51,554 nt of DNA from Oscillatoriales cyanobacterium PMM_0080. GTDB lineage: Bacteria; Cyanobacteriota; Cyanobacteriia; Cyanobacteriales; Microcoleaceae. The notes under the pieces were generated by a model. That model was given only the letters and a program-made list of their open reading frames with translations, was not told where the DNA came from and ran no database searches. The position numbers were made by a program, and so were the translations under genes. Each line of letters begins with the position of its first letter. The stretch's first letter is position 1. The DNA is taken from contig CASBQF010000028.1 of NCBI GenBank assembly GCA_949127775.1, forward strand, positions 1-51,554, given 5' to 3'. Below are positions 6,845 through 41,605 of this stretch, piece by piece.

Positions 6845-8350
6845 TCACCGCCCTAAAAGCTTCACCAAACCAACGCCGCCAAAGTAAAGAGCGAGCACCG
6901 CACCTCCCAAAAGACTTTGCGTTAAAGGATCAGTAGAAGGCGTTAAAACAGCACCTAAAACAGCCGCTCCCAAAACTACATAACGCCAGCCTGATAGCAT
7001 TTGCTTAGAAGAAACTATCCCCAAAACGCCGAGTAATACTTGGACGATCGGGATTTGAAAAGCTAAACCCGTGCTGAACATTAACAACAGTACAAATTTA
7101 AAGTATTTGTCGATCGACCATAATTGCTCTACAACATCCGCCCCGTAGGTAACAAAGAAGTTCAGCGCCGCCGGAATCAGAGCAATATAAGCAAATACCA
7201 GCCCGCCCAAAAAGAGGAAACTAGAACCAAAAAACACTGGCCCGAGCAACCCGCGTTCTTTGCGAGTCAAACCGGGTAGCACAAATAGCGCTATTTGGTA
7301 AAAAATAAACGGAGTCGCAATTAGCAAACCGCTATATCCGGCGACTTCGATAGAAACAAAGAAATATTCCCCGGGAGCTAGTTGCAAAAACTTGACTGGC
7401 CCGGCTGGTGCTTCTAGCAATTGTACGATCGGTCTTACATACAAAAAGCAGCCTACTACACCGATTGCTACGGCAATTATTGAGTAAAAAAGTCGCTGCC
7501 GCAATTCTTCTAAATGGTCGAACAAAGACATCTCAACTTCGTCGGGAAGTTCGTCGAGAAATTCGTCTTCGAGATTGCGGGAACCGATGAAATCATTGGC
7601 GATTTGTGCAATACTATTTTCCTTGCTAACTTCTTCATCTTCTAAGTTATTGACATCCGTAGCATCGTCGGCGATTGGTGCAATGCTATTTTCCTCTTTA
7701 ACTTGTTCGTCTTCTAAATTTTCGTCTTCTAAGTTACTGACATCCGTGAAATCATCAGCGATTGGTGCAATACTATTTTCCGAACTAACTTCTTCAGCTT
7801 CTAAGTTACTGACATCCGTGAAATCATCGGCGATTGGTGCAATACTATTTTCCGAACTAACTTCTTCAGCTTCTAAGTTACTGACATCCGTGAAATCATC
7901 AGCGATTGGTGCAATACTATTTTCCGAACTAACTTCTTTAGATTCTAAGTTACTGACATCCGTAGAATAATCAGCGATTGCTTCAATACTATTTTCCGGT
8001 TTAACTTCTTCAGCTTCTAAGTTACTGACATCCGTGAAATCATCGGCGATTGGTGCAATACTATTTTCTGAACTAACTTCTTCAGCTTCTAAGTTACTGA
8101 CATCCGTGAAATCATCAGCTATTGGTGCAATGCTATTTTCCGGTTTAACTTTTTCAATTTCTAAGTTACTGACATCCGTGAAATCGTCGGCGATTGGTGC
8201 AATATTTTCCGGGCTAACTTCTGCACATTCTAAGTTGTTGACAGCCATCAAATCATCAGCGACTGGTGAAATGCTATTTTCCGCGCTAATTTGTTCGAGG
8301 TTGTTGTCGGAATCTTGTTCGGATGTCTCCAAGTCTAAGGGCAGAGTCAT
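6845..8350 (-). CDS. tatC: Sec-independent translocase TatC with N-terminal acidic tandem repeats
   Basis: The C-terminal ~235 residues are a complete Tat[21 protein letters not shown], then six hydrophobic segments with the conserved [15 protein letters not shown] and TPSTDPLTQ elements. TatC binds twin-arginine signals in the TatABC receptor; PetC in this window is a likely client. Ordinary TatC is about 250 residues. Here residues ~24-268 are about ten copies of a 24-residue unit, consensus [18 protein letters not shown] plus AEEVSS, acidic and predicted soluble on the cytoplasmic side. One unit is shortened by one residue and one lengthened by five. The frame is intact throughout, and the ATG at 8348-8350 precedes the repeats; a start inside ELPDEVEM would give a normal TatC. 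Confidence 0.92.
7547..8281 (-). repeat. 72-bp tandem repeat array inside tatC
   Basis: About ten tandem units of about 72 bp, read on the minus strand, encode the acidic 24-residue repeat of TatC. Central units are almost identical at the nucleotide level (GACATCCGTGAAATCATC on the plus strand recurs), while edge units have drifted. This is the pattern expected from unequal crossover or replication slippage. Every unit keeps a length divisible by three. Confidence 0.9.
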
Positions 8351-34815: not shown

Positions 34816-37254
34816 TTAGTTAGCTATTTTTTCGGCTTGTTTGGTGGTGGCTAACTGTACTTTTTCTACTTGTTTGCTGGCATCCATTTCGCTGAAAAGT
34901 TGAATAGCACGGTCAAAATTTTCTTGGCTTTTCTCGATATTACCAAGTTTTTGTTCTGTGAGTGCTAGTTGATAGTAAGCTTCGGCTCGGTCTAATTTGG
35001 CGCTGGCTCGATCGAGTATTTCGATTGCTTCAGCTAGGTGTAACAGTGCTTGGTCAAATTCTCCCCGTTCTCGGTACAGCGCGGCTATACCGCTGAGAGC
35101 TTTGGCTTTGATGGTGCTGTACTGGTTTTGGTCGGCCTGGACGATCGCCTGGTGGTACAAACTTAAGGCTTTTTCGGTCTCTCCGAGGTTTTTGTAGGTG
35201 GCGGCTAGAAATACTAACTTGTATCCCGTGCCTACCAACTGACTGTCTTCGCGATCGACATAAAGTTTGTCGGCGAGTTCCTTCGCGGCTTTTTTGACTC
35301 CGACACAGGAGTTGAGGAAAGCTAACCCGACATCGATCGAATAGCTGTTAATGCCGATTTCTTCCCGCGATTTTTTCAGTTTTACAAAAATTTCCATAGC
35401 TGGTTCTAATTCCCGCATTTCTATTTGACAAAATCCTATATTAATCGCAGCGTTAACTTTCCAGAATTCCAGATTAGCTTGTTTTTCATTTTCAGGTTCA
35501 CTGCTTTTCGCTATACTTTGCAAAGATTTAGTGGCTTTTCTTTCGGATATTTGATGACATTCTATGGCTTGATTTATATCGCCTAATATCCGATAAGAAA
35601 CACCTAAAATACTGTATAGACCGCTCAAATAATAATCAGAAGTCACATTGTTGACAATGCGAGTAGTTGCTGAAATTATTGGCTGCAAGAAACCTAGTTT
35701 GTAGAGCGCTCTACCGAGTTTGTAATCTTTGGCAAACTGGATATTGATTTTTTTGAGGATGATGCTTGCAGCCTGCTCGAAACAGCTAATTGCTACATAG
35801 TGATAGTAAGCTTCAAAAGCTTTGAGCGCATCTTCTACAGTCTCAATCGTCTCCACGCTCTCTGTCCAAAACTCGGCGGCTTTGCGGTTGGCCGTCTCCC
35901 AGTCTCCGGGCGAGAGCCGATCGACTGCTTCTTCGCGAATTGCCGGATGCAGCCAGTATTCGCCTTTCTGAGACTCGACTAGCGATCGATGCAACAGCGA
36001 TTTAATGATTTGTCGCCGTCCAGCTTCGGGCACATCCCAAAGCAAACACAAAAGTCCGTCTGTGGGGACTGTCGGCACGTCTTGATAGCGGTAACAGCCC
36101 AAGCGGCACAGGAGTTGATAGGCTTCGTAATCTAGTTCTTGGAGTCGGTTGAATTGACTCGTCACTAAATTTTTTAAGTCGGTTTCAACAAGCGGATCGT
36201 CGCTGTTTTCTAGCCAGTAGGCTGTCATATCTCCATCAAAATCTTCTCGGATTGTCCCCCAAAGAATGCCCATTGCTTTGGCATTACCGCCGTAAACTTT
36301 GTGCATTTCTACGAGGGCGACAGGATCTATGTTGATATTACGATCGCCAAAAAACTGCTGCCAAACTTCCACCTCTAATCCTGGAAGCAGGTAGTGTTCG
36401 ACGGTTACGTCAGAGTCGCAAAGCCGATCGCGACTGGTAATGAGCGTTACCGACTGCACCGCCGCGTCAGCCAAAACTCGCAACAGTTCGACGTAAAGTC
36501 GGTGCGGTTCAATAAACTTACCTTGTCCATCGAGGGCGGCTTCCAAGTTGTCAATCAATACGCCGACTTTGAGAGTCTGAAGCTGGCGCTTCAGGCGCCC
36601 GAGGGTGACGCCAAAGTCAGGCCCTGGTTCTTCCTGAAAGTCTTGCTTGAGCCATTCTTCGATCGCGCTGTCTAAGGCGGTGATGTTCTCTGTCTCTTTT
36701 GCCATCAGCAGTTCAATTACTCGATCGAACCCTTGAGACTTGAGATACTGTCTGGCCAAAGTCGTTTTGCCCATACCGCCGGCACTTTGGATCACAATCA
36801 CTTTAGCGCCTTGGGCGACCAGAGTATTCAGATCCTCGATCGCCCCACACCGGCCCAAAAAGTTGGGGTTTTCGATTTCCAAGTCGGAATCATGTCCCAG
36901 AGGCGATCGCTGCGGAACAATTTGCCCGGACTGGGGTTCTAATTTAGAGTAGCTACGCCAATATCGGTCTACTACCGCTTGCAAGTTATCTTTTTTGACT
37001 TTTTCTCCTTCTCCAAACAAAGCTGAAAGCCGCTTCCACAAATTAGAAGCCGCGTCCTTTACAGTCCCTACTCCATATCCTTCACTTTCTGCCACCTGTT
37101 GGTACGTCCTGCCTTGCACCCCGATCCAAGCTTCGCGAAAGATAGCGCTGTCAAGGTTATCGAGATTTTTCAGGTTTCGAGCCACAAGTAACGAGTTAGT
37201 AAAATCCAGTGCTTGATCCGCTTCCATTGAGTCACCAGGTCTAGCGTTACCCAT
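34816..37254 (-). CDS. STAND NTPase: N-terminal HTH, NB-ARC-type ATPase, TPR tail
   Basis: From the ATG at 37252-37254 the protein has 812 residues; an ATG at 37225-37227 also fits. Residues ~10-97 resemble the N-terminal helix-turn-helix found in cyanobacterial WD40/vWA-MoxR-associated proteins (LDSAIFREAWIG ... TYQQVAESEGY ... LWKRLSALFGE). A P-loop AGGMGKTTLA is at about 158-167, a Walker B-like GVLIDNLEAALD follows, and a winged-helix/ARC-like region comes after. The C-terminal ~300 residues are TPR repeats (EKALSLYHQAIVQAD, FDQALLHLAEAIEIL). STAND proteins are switch ATPases of conflict or signalling systems. The gene is divergent from an array of small NfeD-C-like genes, a plausible functional partner set. 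Confidence 0.85.
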   Translation of the reverse strand: MGNARPGDSMEADQALDFTNSLLVARNLKNLDNLDSAIFREAWIGVQGRTYQQVAESEGYGVGTVKDAASNLWKRLSALFGEGEKVKKDNLQAVVDRYWRSYSKLEPQSGQIVPQRSPLGHDSDLEIENPNFLGRCGAIEDLNTLVAQGAKVIVIQSAGGMGKTTLARQYLKSQGFDRVIELLMAKETENITALDSAIEEWLKQDFQEEPGPDFGVTLGRLKRQLQTLKVGVLIDNLEAALDGQGKFIEPHRLYVELLRVLADAAVQSVTLITSRDRLCDSDVTVEHYLLPGLEVEVWQQFFGDRNINIDPVALVEMHKVYGGNAKAMGILWGTIREDFDGDMTAYWLENSDDPLVETDLKNLVTSQFNRLQELDYEAYQLLCRLGCYRYQDVPTVPTDGLLCLLWDVPEAGRRQIIKSLLHRSLVESQKGEYWLHPAIREEAVDRLSPGDWETANRKAAEFWTESVETIETVEDALKAFEAYYHYVAISCFEQAASIILKKINIQFAKDYKLGRALYKLGFLQPIISATTRIVNNVTSDYYLSGLYSILGVSYRILGDINQAIECHQISERKATKSLQSIAKSSEPENEKQANLEFWKVNAAINIGFCQIEMRELEPAMEIFVKLKKSREEIGINSYSIDVGLAFLNSCVGVKKAAKELADKLYVDREDSQLVGTGYKLVFLAATYKNLGETEKALSLYHQAIVQADQNQYSTIKAKALSGIAALYRERGEFDQALLHLAEAIEILDRASAKLDRAEAYYQLALTEQKLGNIEKSQENFDRAIQLFSEMDASKQVEKVQLATTKQAEKIAN

Positions 37255-37263
37255 ATGAAACAA

Positions 37264-37442
37264 CTCTAACAGACTTTTTCCGACTCGCTTACCCCCTCAA
37301 ACAGCCGACTTATATGGACTTTTGCCGACTGACATGACTCCTGGAGGCCGGCGAGACTGTTGAGTGTGGAAGGGAAGTTGACAGACAAGCTTCTGACATC
37401 CGCACAAATCAGGCTAATCTTTACACTCAGGAGCAAGCAGCT
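37264..37442. promoter_or_regulatory. Divergent promoter region with three CCGACT repeats
   Basis: This 179-bp gap lies between the STAND gene and the first small NfeD-like gene. CCGACT occurs three times (37280-37285, 37305-37310, 37325-37330), the last two inside GCCGACT. A TTGACA at 37378-37383 could be a -35 box for the plus-strand array, but no matching -10 is evident. TCAGGAGCA is the ribosome binding site of the first small gene. Confidence 0.45.
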
Positions 37443-37625
37443 ATGTCTATTAACAACGTTGAAAAAGCAATCGTCGATGAAGCAATCCGCCCTCAAGAAT
37501 GTGGTAGAGTGCGTTTTCAAAGCAGTTGGTGGCCTGCAAGATGCGATCGAGACATGACTTTTCAACCCGGTGATGTGGTTCGGGTAGTCGGAATCGACAA
37601 CATTACTCTGATTATTTCGGCCTAG
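37443..37625 (+). CDS. Small NfeD-C-like (OB-fold) protein, array copy 1
   Basis: A 60-residue protein made of one domain: EKAIVDEAIRP, CGRVRFQSSWWPARCD, MTFQPGDVVRVVGIDNITLI. The pattern (short strand, RP, G-[KR]-V, then G-x-x-V-x-V, then N-x-L) matches the C-terminal OB-like domain of NfeD proteins, without the membrane part. NfeD-C domains bind protein partners such as stomatins. It has an AGGAG site 12 bases before its ATG. It heads an array of paralogues divergent from the STAND NTPase gene. Confidence 0.82.
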   Translation: MSINNVEKAIVDEAIRPQECGRVRFQSSWWPARCDRDMTFQPGDVVRVVGIDNITLIISA

Positions 37626-37706
37626 CTGCCGATCGGGTAGCGATCCGAGCCATCAATTTTTCGCATCTCAAAGTTCAGGAAAATCTAAAATTAGGAACAG
37701 GCAATC

Positions 37707-38099
37707 ATGACAGTCAAAAATTTGGAAAAAGCAATCGTCGATCGAGCGATTCGTCATCAAGAATGCAGCAGAGTCGATTTCCAAAGCACTGAGTGGGCCT
37801 TCATATGCGACGATCGAGACATCATTTTTCAACTCCGTGGCAGGAATCGCATCGTCGGAATGGACAATATTACTCTGAAAAAGTTAAAGCTAGTTCAGAA
37901 TCAGGAGGCTACAACCACGACTATTATCAACCCAGAAAAAGCGATCGTTGATGAAGAAATTCGACCAGGCGATTGCGGGCGCGTTCATTTTCAGAACAGT
38001 TGGTGGCCCGCGAAGTGCGATCTAGACATGACTTTCCAACGCGGTGAATTGGTTAACGTACTTGGAATTGACAACATTACTTTGATCGTTGGGCCATAG
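37707..38099 (+). CDS. Double-domain NfeD-C-like protein, array copies 2a/2b
   Basis: A 130-residue protein with two tandem domains. Domain one (1-60) is degenerate: the WW of FQSSWWPA is EWAF and the G of GRV is S. Domain two (~77-130) is intact (CGRVHFQNSWWPAKCD). The linker contains AGGAGG (37903-37908) and, eight bases later, ACG (37917-37919, Thr71) exactly where the other copies have ATG. So two separate genes were joined by loss of the second start and of the first stop. An ACG start for domain two cannot be excluded. Confidence 0.82.
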   Translation: MTVKNLEKAIVDRAIRHQECSRVDFQSTEWAFICDDRDIIFQLRGRNRIVGMDNITLKKLKLVQNQEATTTTIINPEKAIVDEEIRPGDCGRVHFQNSWWPAKCDLDMTFQRGELVNVLGIDNITLIVGP

Positions 38100-38185
38100 T
38101 TGAAAATCAATGGATTAGCAAGTTAAAGCCGTCAGTTTGTTTTATTTCAATGTTTCGGAAAACTTGCAATTAGGAACTAAAAATC

Positions 38186-38368
38186 ATGACTGTCAGCCCT
38201 TTGGAAAAAGCGATTGTCGAAGAAGAAATTCGGCCTCAAGAATCCGGTCGCGTCCGTTTTCAAAGCAGTTGGTGGCCTGCGAAGTGCGATCTAGACATAA
38301 CTTTGAAACCCGGCGATGTAGTTCGGGTTGTGGGAATTGACAACATTACTCTCATAGTTGAAGGGTAA
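38186..38368 (+). CDS. Small NfeD-C-like (OB-fold) protein, array copy 3
   Basis: A 60-residue single-domain paralogue: EKAIVEEEIRPQESGRVRFQ, SSWWPAKCDLDITLKPGDVV, RVVGIDNITLIVEG. It keeps all family hallmarks and has a TTAGGAACTAAAAATC leader before ATG. It is 86 bp downstream of the double gene, so the array is probably one transcript. Confidence 0.82.
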   Translation: MTVSPLEKAIVEEEIRPQESGRVRFQSSWWPAKCDLDITLKPGDVVRVVGIDNITLIVEG

Positions 38369-38638
38369 TTCGGAGAAATTCTGTAGGTGGGGAGTCGTCA
38401 AATAGTTTCTATGCAGTTATCTAGAAGGCAGAATTTCATTACCAGAGTTGAATACCCGGGGATGGAAAACCTGACACTTTTATCTGAATGCAGAAGACAC
38501 TTCGATGTAGAATCCAGAATTTTAGTCCCAGCTTGTAATTGTTGGGATGAGAAGTATGACACTTTTATCTAACTGCAAAAGCACGAGCTTTTTGCATCAA
38601 TAAAGTTCAACACAACCTATCTTCAGGAGAAATCCGCC
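38369..38638. other. 270-bp gap between array copies 3 and 4
   Basis: It contains two imperfect copies of TGACACTTTTATCTGAATGC (about 38471 and 38557), about 86 bp apart. A small frame across it lacks any domain hallmark and overlaps this repeat, so it is probably leader DNA. A TTCAGGAGAAAT site precedes copy 4. Confidence 0.5.
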
Positions 38639-39028
38639 ATGTCTACTAACTATGTCCAAGAAGCAAGCTTTGTTGAAGAAGAAGGAATATTAGCTTTCGC
38701 TGATGAGGAACAAGTCAGCGGTTTGCAAAATCCCATTAAAGGTGTAGGAGAAGAGACGGTGGCTAGTTCGCAAAAAGCTAGCGCTGTTGTTGATGAAAAA
38801 GTGGCTGTCGGTGATGTAGAAACAGACCATCATCATCTAGCACCAAAAGCGATCGCTAAAGACGAAAAAGCGATCGTAGAAGAAGAAATTCGTCCGGGCG
38901 AATCTGGTCGCGTCCGCTTTCAAAGCAGTTGGTGGCCTGCGATATCAGACCAAGAAATTACTTTTAAACCCGGAGATGCAGTTCGAGTCCTCGCGATTGA
39001 CAATGTGACTCTGATTGTTGAAGGGTAG
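38639..39028 (+). CDS. NfeD-C-like protein with acidic N-terminal extension, array copy 4
   Basis: A 129-residue protein. Residues 1-75 are an acidic, low-complexity extension (YVQEASFVEEEGILAFADEE, then a HHH cluster in DHHHLAPK) absent from the other copies. Residues ~75-129 are the standard domain: KAIVEEEIRPGESGRVRFQS, SWWPAISDQEITFKPGDAVR, VLAIDNVTLIVEG. The extension could act as a tether or tag. The TCAGGAGAAATCCGCC leader supports the ATG at 38639. Confidence 0.8.
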   Translation: MSTNYVQEASFVEEEGILAFADEEQVSGLQNPIKGVGEETVASSQKASAVVDEKVAVGDVETDHHHLAPKAIAKDEKAIVEEEIRPGESGRVRFQSSWWPAISDQEITFKPGDAVRVLAIDNVTLIVEG

Positions 39029-39278
39029 TTGCTTTCGCATCTGTTTGTGGGGAGTCAGATTATTTTCGATTTTCGATTTGGCATAACTGATAATAATCGG
39101 GTTTGGAGTTGGCAGACAGTTGTATTCTTTGCTGAAACTAATGTCATTAGATGGCATTGATGTAGGAGGCAAAATTTAAATTTCAGACTTGCAATACGCA
39201 GAGATTTAAATTTTTAGCTATCAGGAGCAACTGTTCGTCTTCTCAACTAAATCCCACCCATTTTTAGGAGCAGTAATC

Positions 39279-39931
39279 ATGTCTTTTGACTATTTTGAAG
39301 AAGCAATTGTTGCAGAAGAAATTCGACCTAATCAATGCGGTCGCGTTCGCTTTCAATGCAGTTGGTGGCCTGCGAGGTGCGATAGAGGTATAACTTTTAA
39401 ACCAGGAGCACTGGTTTATCAAAAATTTGGGTTTAAAACCCTGTCCTTCTAGGACAGCTTTAATTTCTTAAAACTTTTTTCAAAAAGTCCGATAAGTTCC
39501 GATATCTGGGGTATAGTATAAAAGTCAAGGTTAAACTCCTTTGCGATCGTAAAACAGGACATGAGACACACTTTTACGCATAAACCGGGGGACAAAGTGC
39601 GGCGAAAACACTATAAACAGCCGAAACCGAAAATGTAGGTTTCAATCCAGCAAACACAACTTTTCTACTGGAAATCGTTAAGTAGGGTAGGGCATACCCG
39701 AACTCGCTTGCTTGTATCAAGCGTACGCTTTTGGAGATAAACTCGCTGGGGTTGTTGTGAGTCAGGCTTGTTAATTGGTGGTATACCACGGTTAAACAGT
39801 TTGAGTAATGCCGCAAGGACATAACGCTTTAAGGTATGTCGCAGAATTAAGAATCCTCGCACCGACCGGGCGGGGAGTGTCAAGTAGTCGGAATCGACAA
39901 GATTACGTTGCTGGTGGAGGGTGTAGCTTGA
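39279..39931 (+). pseudogene. NfeD-C-like copy 5, interrupted by a 464-bp insertion
   Basis: The 5' part (39279-39419) encodes 47 residues with every hallmark: AIVAEEIRPNQCGRVRFQCS, then WWPARCDRGITFKPGALVY. The 3' part (39884-39931) encodes VVGIDKITLLVEGVA and a stop. Joining them directly gives a 62-residue protein in frame, LVY-VVGIDK, matching the paralogues. The intervening DNA is an IS200/IS605-type element. As it stands, translation runs ten codons into the element and stops at 39450-39452. Confidence 0.88.
39420..39883 (+). mobile_element. Non-autonomous IS200/IS605-type element without transposase
   Basis: The left end carries hairpins GGGTTT/AAACCC (39429-39441) and CTGTCC-TTCTA-GGACAG (39441-39457). 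The right end has CCTCGC-loop-GCGGGG followed by AGTGTCAA (to 39883), as in IS200/IS605 right ends whose 3' part forms the TnpB guide-RNA scaffold. There is no target duplication, as expected for this superfamily. TTTAT (39415-39419) abuts the left end and would be the target/TAM motif. No tnpA or tnpB remains; small frames inside have no family features. Such elements need transposase in trans. Confidence 0.75.
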
Positions 39932-40441
39932 AATGCGCGAATGTGCGATCGCGCCGTCGCTAAGAAGGCTGTCTCTTCAAATCTCTTCACAGCAGGTGCG
40001 ATCGTCCTTTTTACCTCTTTTGGCTTCAATTGTTCTAGCGTTTAACCTCAACAAGAACTAGCCGTCGGCAATATTGTCGGCGCTTTTTTTGCTCCAGGAG
40101 CCGATCGCCACATCTTTGACCAAAAACTGGCGATTGATTTAAAAAAACTCCCCTAGATGGCATGGGACTGGTGGGCCCAATAATTGGTACGGTCGATCGC
40201 GCGTAAGCAGCCCCATCATCGACAATCGGCATCGGCGCAACATCAACATCCGCGCCAGAGGCTCTCAAAGCTTTGATAATTTGATAGTTAATCGATTCTC
40301 TGTCTTTGATTTGGGATAATCCGAACGTAATCCGAATCAGTGCTGAACTTTTTTTTTTAAACACAGTCAGGTCATCGCTACCCGCAGACCGACTAAACTT
40401 TTTGTTAGTCTAATTTAAATACATTGTGGAAGTGAAACAGC
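39932..40441. other. Gene-free region before guaB3
   Basis: The 510 bp contain several GCGATCGC-type sites and no convincing gene. A minus-strand GTG frame (40035-40364) has no recognisable family, no ribosome binding site and starts in an A/T homopolymer. A plus-strand stretch (about 40057-40158) reads LAVGNIVGAFFAPGADRHIF without a start, and could be a decayed gene. The guaB3 promoter must be near the right edge. Confidence 0.4.
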
Positions 40442-41605
40442 GTGAATATTGAAATTGGGCGGGGCAAAAGCGCTCGCAGAGCTTACGGCATAGATGAAAT
40501 CGCTCTCGTGCCCGGACAGCGCACCCTCGATCCGAGTTTGGCGGATACTAAGTGGCAGATTGGTGGGATCGATCGAGAAATCCCGATCATCGCTAGCGCA
40601 ATGGATGGAGTAGTCGATGTCCGCATGGCTATTTTGCTGTCGGAATTGGGAGCAATGGGCGTGCTGAACCTAGAAGGAATTCAAACCCGCTATGCCGACC
40701 CCCAGCCAATATTAGAGCGCATCGCCAGTGTCGGGAACCACGAATTTGTTTCCTTAATGCAGCAACTCTATGCAGAACCCATCAAGCCAGAATTAATCGA
40801 CCTGAGAATTAAAGAAATTAAAGCTGGAGGAGGGATTGCCGCCGTCAGCGGTACACCGGCCGGTGCGAGCAAATACGGCTTAAAAGTTGCCGCAGCAGGA
40901 GCCGATATATTTTTTGTACAGGCAACTGTGGTCTCGACAGCTTTTCTTTCCCCAGAGTCGATCGTATCTTTAGACTTGACCAAATTCTGTCAAGAGATGC
41001 CAATACCAGTAATTTTGGGCAACTGCGTGACCTACGAAGTTGCCATAAATTTAATGAAAACTGGTGCCGCAGGCATTCTCGTGGGCATAGGGCCGGGGGC
41101 TGCTTGCACGTCCCGGGGCGTATTGGGTGTCGGCGTTCCCCAAGCGACAGCGGTAGCAGACTGCGCCGCCGCGCGGGACGACTACTATCGCGAAACTGGC
41201 AAATACGTGTCGGTGATTGCTGACGGCGGTTTAATTACCGGTGGCGATATTTGCAAGTGCATTGCCTGCGGCGCTGATGGAGTGATGATTGGTTCGCCCT
41301 TTGCCAGGGCCGCCGAAGCTCCAGGCCGCGGCTTTCACTGGGGGATGGCGACTCCCAGCCCGGTTTTGCCGCGCGGCACTCGGATTCGCGTGGGGACTAC
41401 TGGGACTGTGGAGCAAATTTTGCGGGGGCCTGCGCTGTTAGATGACGGTACGCACAACTTGCTCGGAGCTCTGAAAACAAGCATGGGTACCTTGGGCGCT
41501 AAGGATATTAAGGAGATGCAGCAAGTGGAAGTGGTAATTGCTCCTTCTCTGCTGACTGAGGGTAAAGTCTATCAAAAAGCTCAGCAGTTGGGCATGGGCA
41601 AGTAG
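40442..41605 (+). CDS. guaB3: GuaB3-family IMP dehydrogenase-related protein
   Basis: A 387-residue IMPDH/GMPR-type TIM barrel without CBS domains. Signatures are [20 protein letters not shown], the catalytic-loop Cys in [20 protein letters not shown], and [20 protein letters not shown] with [19 protein letters not shown]. GuaB3 is the cyanobacterial/actinobacterial IMPDH-related group; its reaction may be GMP reduction (GMP to IMP) or IMP oxidation. It begins with GTG, preceded by GGAAG. It heads the conserved guaB3-yfr1-trxA neighbourhood. Confidence 0.93.

Follow-up and report, generated by a model that had tools for sequence, protein, structure and literature searches.

A STAND NTPase gene facing an array of small NfeD-C proteins in an Oscillatoriales cyanobacterium: a candidate autoregulated switch

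Closest described systems and the anatomy of the locus

Bacterial STAND proteins are many and, to our knowledge, mostly without known inputs or partners. In the window, by which we mean the whole stretch of 51,554 nucleotides analysed here (contig CASBQF010000028.1 of Oscillatoriales cyanobacterium PMM_0080), a STAND gene on the minus strand lies divergent from five small genes that encode six copies of the C-terminal domain of NfeD (NfeD-C). We lean towards reading this locus as an autoregulated STAND switch, a transcription regulator of the MalT/AfsR kind with a dedicated small NfeD-C partner, which would regulate both itself and the array. The pair is small and testable: its fusion in other genomes tells which parts go together, and the promoter tells where the protein may bind. 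If the reading is true, NfeD-C would have a role outside membrane SPFH complexes, and there would be a handle on the control of STANDs in filamentous cyanobacteria.

Like the locus, where the helix-turn-helix (HTH) domain is a putative one, MalT and AfsR carry an HTH, an NTPase and tetratricopeptide repeats (TPR) in one chain. The HTH of MalT is C-terminal, and we know of no NfeD-C partner of MalT/AfsR regulators; AfsR has a SARP domain, so the type of HTH differs from that of the locus. A further likeness is a promoter with direct repeats about one helical turn apart, which for the STAND regulator AfsR are given as 11-bp direct repeats in the accessible part of PMC10936776. In a survey of 361 cyanobacterial genomes, the accessible text of which does not mention NfeD (PMC11119718), sigma-70-like proteins bear NB-ARC, WD40, TPR_MalT and AAA_35 accessory domains, the same range as that of the STAND partners described below; the likeness is one of domain lists alone, and the match of the window protein to Sigma70_r4 is at E 0.08.

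Classical NfeD proteins, partners in stomatin operons, share the OB-fold domain PF01957 with the small proteins of the window, which differ in being single-domain (one is two-domain) and in having no protease or membrane part. The OB domain of NfeD binds flotillin, as stated in the accessible part of PMC11222466. Effector-associated domains (EADs) were described by Kaur et al. in 2020 (PMC7159879) and in a 2021 follow-up (PMC8195603) as small domains common to NTPases and their neighbours; by word count, NfeD is not mentioned in the accessible text of either paper. As with EADs, a small non-catalytic domain is found N-terminal on the core NTPase in some genomes and adjacent to it in others: NfeD-C is fused to a STAND in 12 frames of other genomes, none of them in the window, and by Pfam no second copy is fused to an effector or signalling domain in the five small window proteins. 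The EADs in the accessible part of PMC7159879 are alpha-helical or alpha+beta, whereas NfeD-C is modelled here as an all-beta barrel. Literature searches, which mostly did not cover subscription journals, found nothing joining NfeD to a STAND NTPase or NB-ARC and, among work on NfeD in cyanobacteria, no title linking NfeD to STAND.

A first-pass annotation of this DNA had described an HTH-NTPase-TPR gene on the minus strand and six copies of a domain of about 55 residues in five divergent genes, and the frames, Pfam and a home-made profile bear this out. The minus-strand frame 34816-37263 and the five plus-strand frames (Table 1) were confirmed, and the profile placed the 57-residue NfeD-C (OB-fold) domain at 37449, 37713 (degenerate), 37923, 38192, 38852 and 39285. 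The copies do differ by fusion, acidic extension, degeneration and insertion, as seen in the two-domain protein, copy 4, domain 2a and the repeat element in the last copy. Four of the five small frames match PF01957 (NfeD C-terminal) above the cut-off (E 7.7e-12 to 2.9e-10), and the fifth falls under it (E 0.017). Microprotein 3 was modelled as a five-stranded barrel with a predicted local distance difference test (pLDDT) score of 87, and its closest PDB structures are the NfeD-C entries 3cp0, 3wwv, 2k5h and 8z5g. By sequence and modelled OB fold the small proteins fit the NfeD C-terminal domain. NfeD is the sole Pfam family above cut-off in the five (57-130 aa), so they carry no effector domain, and the domain stands alone in them, without the membrane segment of full-length NfeD. 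No SPFH gene was recognised, by reading rather than by family search, among the 51 window frames of at least 110 aa.

In the STAND protein the Walker A motif SAGGMGKTT is present. The protein matches NB-ARC weakly (E 2.5e-4, 20.8 bits, under the cut-off of 23.5), and a relative at 50% identity (L172) passes it with 25.1 bits. From its sequence the window protein qualifies as a STAND, with a predicted NB-ARC/AP-ATPase-type P-loop NTPase and a C-terminal repeat sensor. Its start is more likely at ATG 37227 (MEADQAL...) than at the doubtful TTG 37263, since the former aligns with the starts of relatives fetched by name (MEAD in 13 of 14, MDFE in one) and more distant homologues begin in a similar way. 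With the start moved to ATG 37227, the intergenic gap is 215 bp, in place of the 179 bp proposed at first. The N-terminal domain, which we label vHTH, gave weak matches throughout: besides that to Sigma70_r4, the best Foldseek E was 0.27, with sigma region 4 and LuxR-type HTH among the hits, and the model had a pLDDT of 71. PADLOC had no match for the two small proteins tested and returned for the STAND just two generic TPR models (E 4e-5 and 2.5e-3), with no specific defence system. A search for viral relatives of the STAND gave six pattern matches, none of them confirmed.

Linkage and fusion of NfeD-C with STAND genes

The genus sample consisted of 29 genomes, our own included, with the STAND scored at 72% identity or more; the close relatives with named records are mostly Microcoleus, with Tychonema and others. 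The 60-residue array was found in 19 of the 29 genomes and the STAND in 18, every one among those 19, so that both are present in 18, neither in ten and the array alone in one. The corresponding Fisher p of 5e-7, uncorrected for kinship, overstates the linkage because the genomes are related. A decayed STAND piece adjoins a decayed array in G017, the STAND of G023 is split across two contigs, and G015, counted among the ten with neither, retains a 79% STAND fragment near a flanking gene. Eleven genomes lack the pair at the site. In six of these (G001, G008, G018, G019, G020 and G024) the two flanking genes share a contig and lie 1.6-3.9 kb apart, compared with a distance of 6.3 kb in the window; in the remaining five they were on different contigs or not found. 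Within the genus the pair has mostly been gained and lost jointly. A STAND paralogue at 68% identity (L087) also has an NfeD-C gene.

Another NfeD-C type, "type B" (proteins of about 95 aa with the N-terminus MFNVVKAFGSIFST), is encoded at a separate locus, as an array or a single gene, in all 20 stretches fetched for it (L058-L077, from other genus genomes) and at C19:3-137 of our own genome. Six of the 20 encode, within about 3 kb, a relative of an HTH-NACHT-NCH2 protein, and three have another protein, of 504 aa. A 149-aa NfeD-C protein is divergent from an 855-aa HTH protein without a recognised NTPase in four genomes, with some frames broken (our own, on C187, L056:5653-9131; L094, L095 and L096), and four more genomes (L188, L191, L208 and L216) have a relative of the 855-aa protein at 1.6-3.7 kb from NfeD-C.

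The linkage extends beyond the genus. The domain profile is matched at E 1e-12 by 89 of 388 class genomes, and 80 stretches from other genera, some of them short, were fetched around listed profile matches down to E 2.7e-16. Of the 83 NfeD-C domains scored in them at E 1e-10, 12 share a frame with a STAND, 24 (at 23 loci) have a divergent STAND within 2.5 kb and two a convergent one; the co-occurrence elsewhere in cyanobacteria that the first-pass annotation had proposed to look for is thus found both here, in the 24 and the 12, and in the 18 genus genomes. Among the others, one domain lies downstream of a NACHT protein, one belongs to a frameshifted fusion (L202) and two have a STAND further off. 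Counted from the STAND side, 37 genes lie within 2.5 kb of NfeD-C or are fused to it (404 kb) compared with six elsewhere (902 kb), two of which (in L184 and L223) belong to near loci. Orientation is divergent in 24 of the 27 non-fused near pairs, the frameshifted fusion left out. Grouped by shared flanking genes, the 40 pair loci (these 37 plus three of the genus) form 29 groups, an upper bound because short contigs share little.

The divergent partners come in several forms: HTH-NTPase-TPR, HTH-NTPase with nothing further (about 460 aa), HTH-NTPase-WD40 (L159, L206) and HTH-AAA_35 (L157). Read by eye among the matches listed, a divergent NfeD-C from the set of profile matches accompanies 18 of 39 assessable short STANDs and one of about 110 long ones (the associated test took 115 long ones).

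In the 12 fused frames NfeD-C, HTH and NTPase follow in that order, with one (L223) broken within the NTPase; the architecture is an N-terminal tail, NfeD-C, a Cro-like HTH and the NTPase, with TPR present in L183, the single one scanned. Two further fusions (G159, G190) are known from coordinates alone. On a tree of 79 NTPase domains, built by a quick method from rows chosen in part through NfeD-C, the fused STANDs form one clade with a Shimodaira-Hasegawa-like approximate likelihood ratio test (SH-aLRT) value of 99, and the divergent label changes nine times, at least six of the changes being forced by well-supported branches. Because they are fused, NfeD-C and the HTH-STAND probably share one complex or pathway.

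An NfeD-C gene directly downstream of a putatively PAS-like protein of about 195 aa was seen in one genome family (L163, L170, L171, L175, L177, L180, L182, L200 and L207, and also L159). Nine of these ten domains form one clade on the domain tree, which has 57 columns and low resolution and in which rows L043_DIV and L061_B (wrong frame) were disregarded.

Direct repeats in the shared promoter

Between the two start codons, an alignment of 17 genus loci, from which L049 (HTH lost) and L054 (no STAND) were left out, shows near-invariant blocks around GACT boxes with a 10-bp period. These repeats, unforeseen in the first-pass annotation, suggest a transcription regulator. Beyond the genus, the box is mostly CTGAACTTT or CCGACTTTTT. 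Same-strand box pairs within 45 bp at the divergent loci are spaced by 10 bp in 12 of 28 cases and by 20 bp in six, with at most one case at every other distance. Tandem boxes were found upstream of 11 of the 24 divergent NfeD-C genes compared with three of the 41 without a STAND in the fetched stretch, namely two of the nine beside the putative PAS-like protein and one of the remaining 32; fused loci gave one of 12 and others none of six. A stricter box pattern finds no box in the window.

Boxes also precede 12 of 26 related STANDs without NfeD-C, by a looser pattern with no background count; these STANDs face other genes, for example one for a 347-residue protein with no Pfam match (L134). 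The repeats therefore go with the STAND and not with NfeD-C, and they look like its own operator, for which they are a candidate. Direct repeats in the regulated promoter, a MalT/AfsR-like feature, are thus present and conserved, with protein binding to them putative. Because of the repeats, we take the STAND to be the probable regulator both of its own promoter and of the divergent genes.

All eight of the STANDs without NfeD-C at L134, L136, L137, L139, L141, L142, L145 and L146 have CCGACTGAC in their promoters and face a frame of one kind, of 205-350 aa (that of L134 alone was scanned); in five of the eight a gene reading as undecaprenyl diphosphate synthase follows. Two wider regulons were considered and set aside. 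Sharing of the operator in trans by orphan NfeD-C genes is contradicted by tandem boxes in just one of 32. In our own genome, an exact 14-mer has one site, apparently coding, besides the two of the locus, and its ten one-mismatch sites compare with 15 for a control pattern, so that no regulon is shown.

Readings of the locus and its remaining features

In the mechanism that we infer, the STAND would be a signal-gated transcription regulator in which a domain for ATP-driven oligomerisation lies between an HTH and a TPR sensor. Once activated by a ligand, it would bind the 10-bp repeats through its HTH as a row of subunits along one face of the DNA and, from the shared promoter, set expression of the NfeD-C genes and its own. 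Their products are partner-binding domains with an OB fold. One STAND clade has the same domain fused immediately in front of the HTH, and on this ground the separate NfeD-C proteins may contact the STAND and act on it in trans; the direction of the effect would be that of a co-regulator, an anti-activator or a tether, and the feedback loop would be closed.

Several observations weigh against this. The vHTH is plausible as a DNA-binding fold but not secured, and the repeats could bind another regulator; the tandem-box pattern was set after the boxes had been seen and several loci are close kin, so the counts are descriptive. Boxes stand before STANDs that have no NfeD-C, as described, and the fused STANDs carry another type of HTH, with boxes in just one of the 12. 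The fetched stretches around nine genus STAND paralogues at 48-58% identity (L078-L086) and five at 31-32% (L088-L092) gave no NfeD-C match at E 1e-3, copy 1 of G025 has an in-frame stop, and the array of G020 lies at another place, with no STAND beside it (L054). For 41 of the 83 sampled domains the fetched stretch contains no STAND, some stretches being short. The possibility foreseen at the outset, that the small domains are equally common away from STAND genes, is borne out in part, by these 41 and the lone array of G020.

A wider version of the autoregulated switch is possible, though we hold it only tentatively: a wide range of cyanobacterial STANDs may have NfeD-C as a partner domain, acting in cis when fused and in trans as an operator-controlled microprotein, an OB-fold module that would gate either oligomerisation or the binding of DNA. 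Where the STAND is short and consists of HTH and NTPase with no repeats (about 460 aa), the small protein would replace the missing sensor.

The best-surviving alternative, which we regard as doubtful but deserving of weight, keeps the regulator and makes the NfeD-C proteins a plain target, the output of a STAND regulon that works elsewhere, for instance at SPFH/flotillin membranes, without touching the STAND. The similar boxes before STANDs facing unrelated genes would fit it, as would the stomatin/SPFH partners 3wwv and 8z5g among the nearest structures and the Phe-rich, acid-poor N-terminal tail of many family members, which could hold a membrane. The window copies, however, have no such tail, and the NfeD-C-HTH fusion and the recurrent pairing on the STAND tree exceed what a target gene needs. 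An amphipathic N-terminal helix was also considered and proved weak by shuffle test, 11 of 45 hand-picked tails falling below p 0.1.

It is improbable that the STAND is an immune or cell-death switch resembling EAD systems, to which the NfeD-C proteins would serve as adaptors, ligands or decoys. STAND NTPases are assigned to conflict systems in the accessible part of PMC7159879, and here the same domain occurs as a fusion with the switch and as the product of a neighbouring gene; against this stand the lack of an effector domain in the small window proteins and of a specific PADLOC match, the housekeeping-like surroundings, the operator-like repeats, the absence of NfeD from the accessible text of both EAD papers, and purifying selection. 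The ratio of non-synonymous to synonymous substitution rates (dN/dS), from short genes with small counts and for the window against up to three relatives, was 0.10-0.17 for the STAND. For NfeD-C copies 1 and 3 it was 0-0.21, in line with the STAND and one flanking gene, the two flanking genes giving 0.07-0.16 and 0.03-0.06. Copy 2b gave 0.16-0.21 (a value of 0.84 for the pair G025-G004, on four changes, carries no weight), the acid-extended copy 4 gave 0.32-0.57, and the degenerate domain 2a gave 0.52 and 0.84 against the window and 0 between two relatives; the comparison omitted copy 1 of G025, which has the stop, and copy 4 of G004, which a contig end cuts off. The intact copies appear to be under purifying selection and only domain 2a and copy 4 look relaxed, so that the pattern looks like constraint plus decay of duplicates. 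These ratios speak against positive or diversifying selection on the copies, and the recurrent selection first proposed for their diversity is not upheld for the intact copies 1 and 3. An immune function has no support in the present data. Of the original proposal that the small proteins are tied to the STAND switch, the adaptor or partner part stands, on co-presence in the genus, the 24 of 83 divergent domains and the fused clade; the role in conflict does not, given PADLOC and the stable, housekeeping-like site. As for decoys, the data speak neither for nor against them.

Simple inheritance of the neighbourhood without a functional link is very improbable. The pair does occupy one site in a genus whose genomes are not independent, but the many different flanks outside it, the fusion, the six or more changes on the STAND tree and the joint absences all speak against mere carriage by descent.

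Table 1. Coordinates of the features of the locus within the window
Feature	Position	Strand	Basis
STAND gene, 803 aa: HTH-like domain, P-loop NTPase, TPR array	34816..37227	-	start from homologues
TPR region	34849..35259	-	TPR_1 E 5.5e-15, TPR_12 E 1.5e-13
STAND NTPase domain, limits approximate	35824..36873	-	Pfam
N-terminal HTH-like domain (vHTH), five predicted helices	36949..37227	-	weak matches
Direct repeat pair, period 10 bp, CAGACTTTTT CCGACTCGCT, candidate operator	37270..37289	+	conservation
Three direct repeats, period 10 bp, CCGACTTATA TGGACTTTTG CCGACTGACA, candidate operator	37305..37334	+	conservation
NfeD-C microprotein 1, 60 aa	37443..37625	+	frame, Pfam, profile
Two-domain NfeD-C protein, 130 aa	37707..38099	+	domain 37713-37880 degenerate, domain 37923-38093 intact
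NfeD-C microprotein 3, 60 aa	38186..38368	+	frame, Pfam, model
NfeD-C protein 4, 129 aa, acidic N-terminal extension	38639..39028	+	domain 38852-39022; Pfam, profile
Last NfeD-C copy, truncated	39279..39452	+	domain part 39285-39419; profile
Repeat element, about 470 bp, inserted in last NfeD-C copy	39415..39884		genome copies
C-terminal remainder of interrupted NfeD-C copy	about 39885..39931	+	sequence

The array-STAND pair lies at a stable site whose neighbours read as housekeeping genes: CemA and IMPDH were named by Pfam, and FtsW, glyoxalase, thioredoxin and LOG are presumed, by recognition and not by family search. Searched for RNA families, positions 37000-40500 gave two matches, both far under gathering scores. 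A 38-nt direct repeat, 79% identical, lies between copies 3 and 4 (38459-38496 and 38544-38581). The repeat element that interrupts the last copy recurs elsewhere in the genome, in three near-full copies of 71-76% identity and in shorter ones; we take it to resemble a non-autonomous IS200/605-type element. Further away in the window, 6845-8350 encodes a membrane protein, presumably TatC-like, whose N-terminal part is a long series of acidic repeats that are nearly identical.

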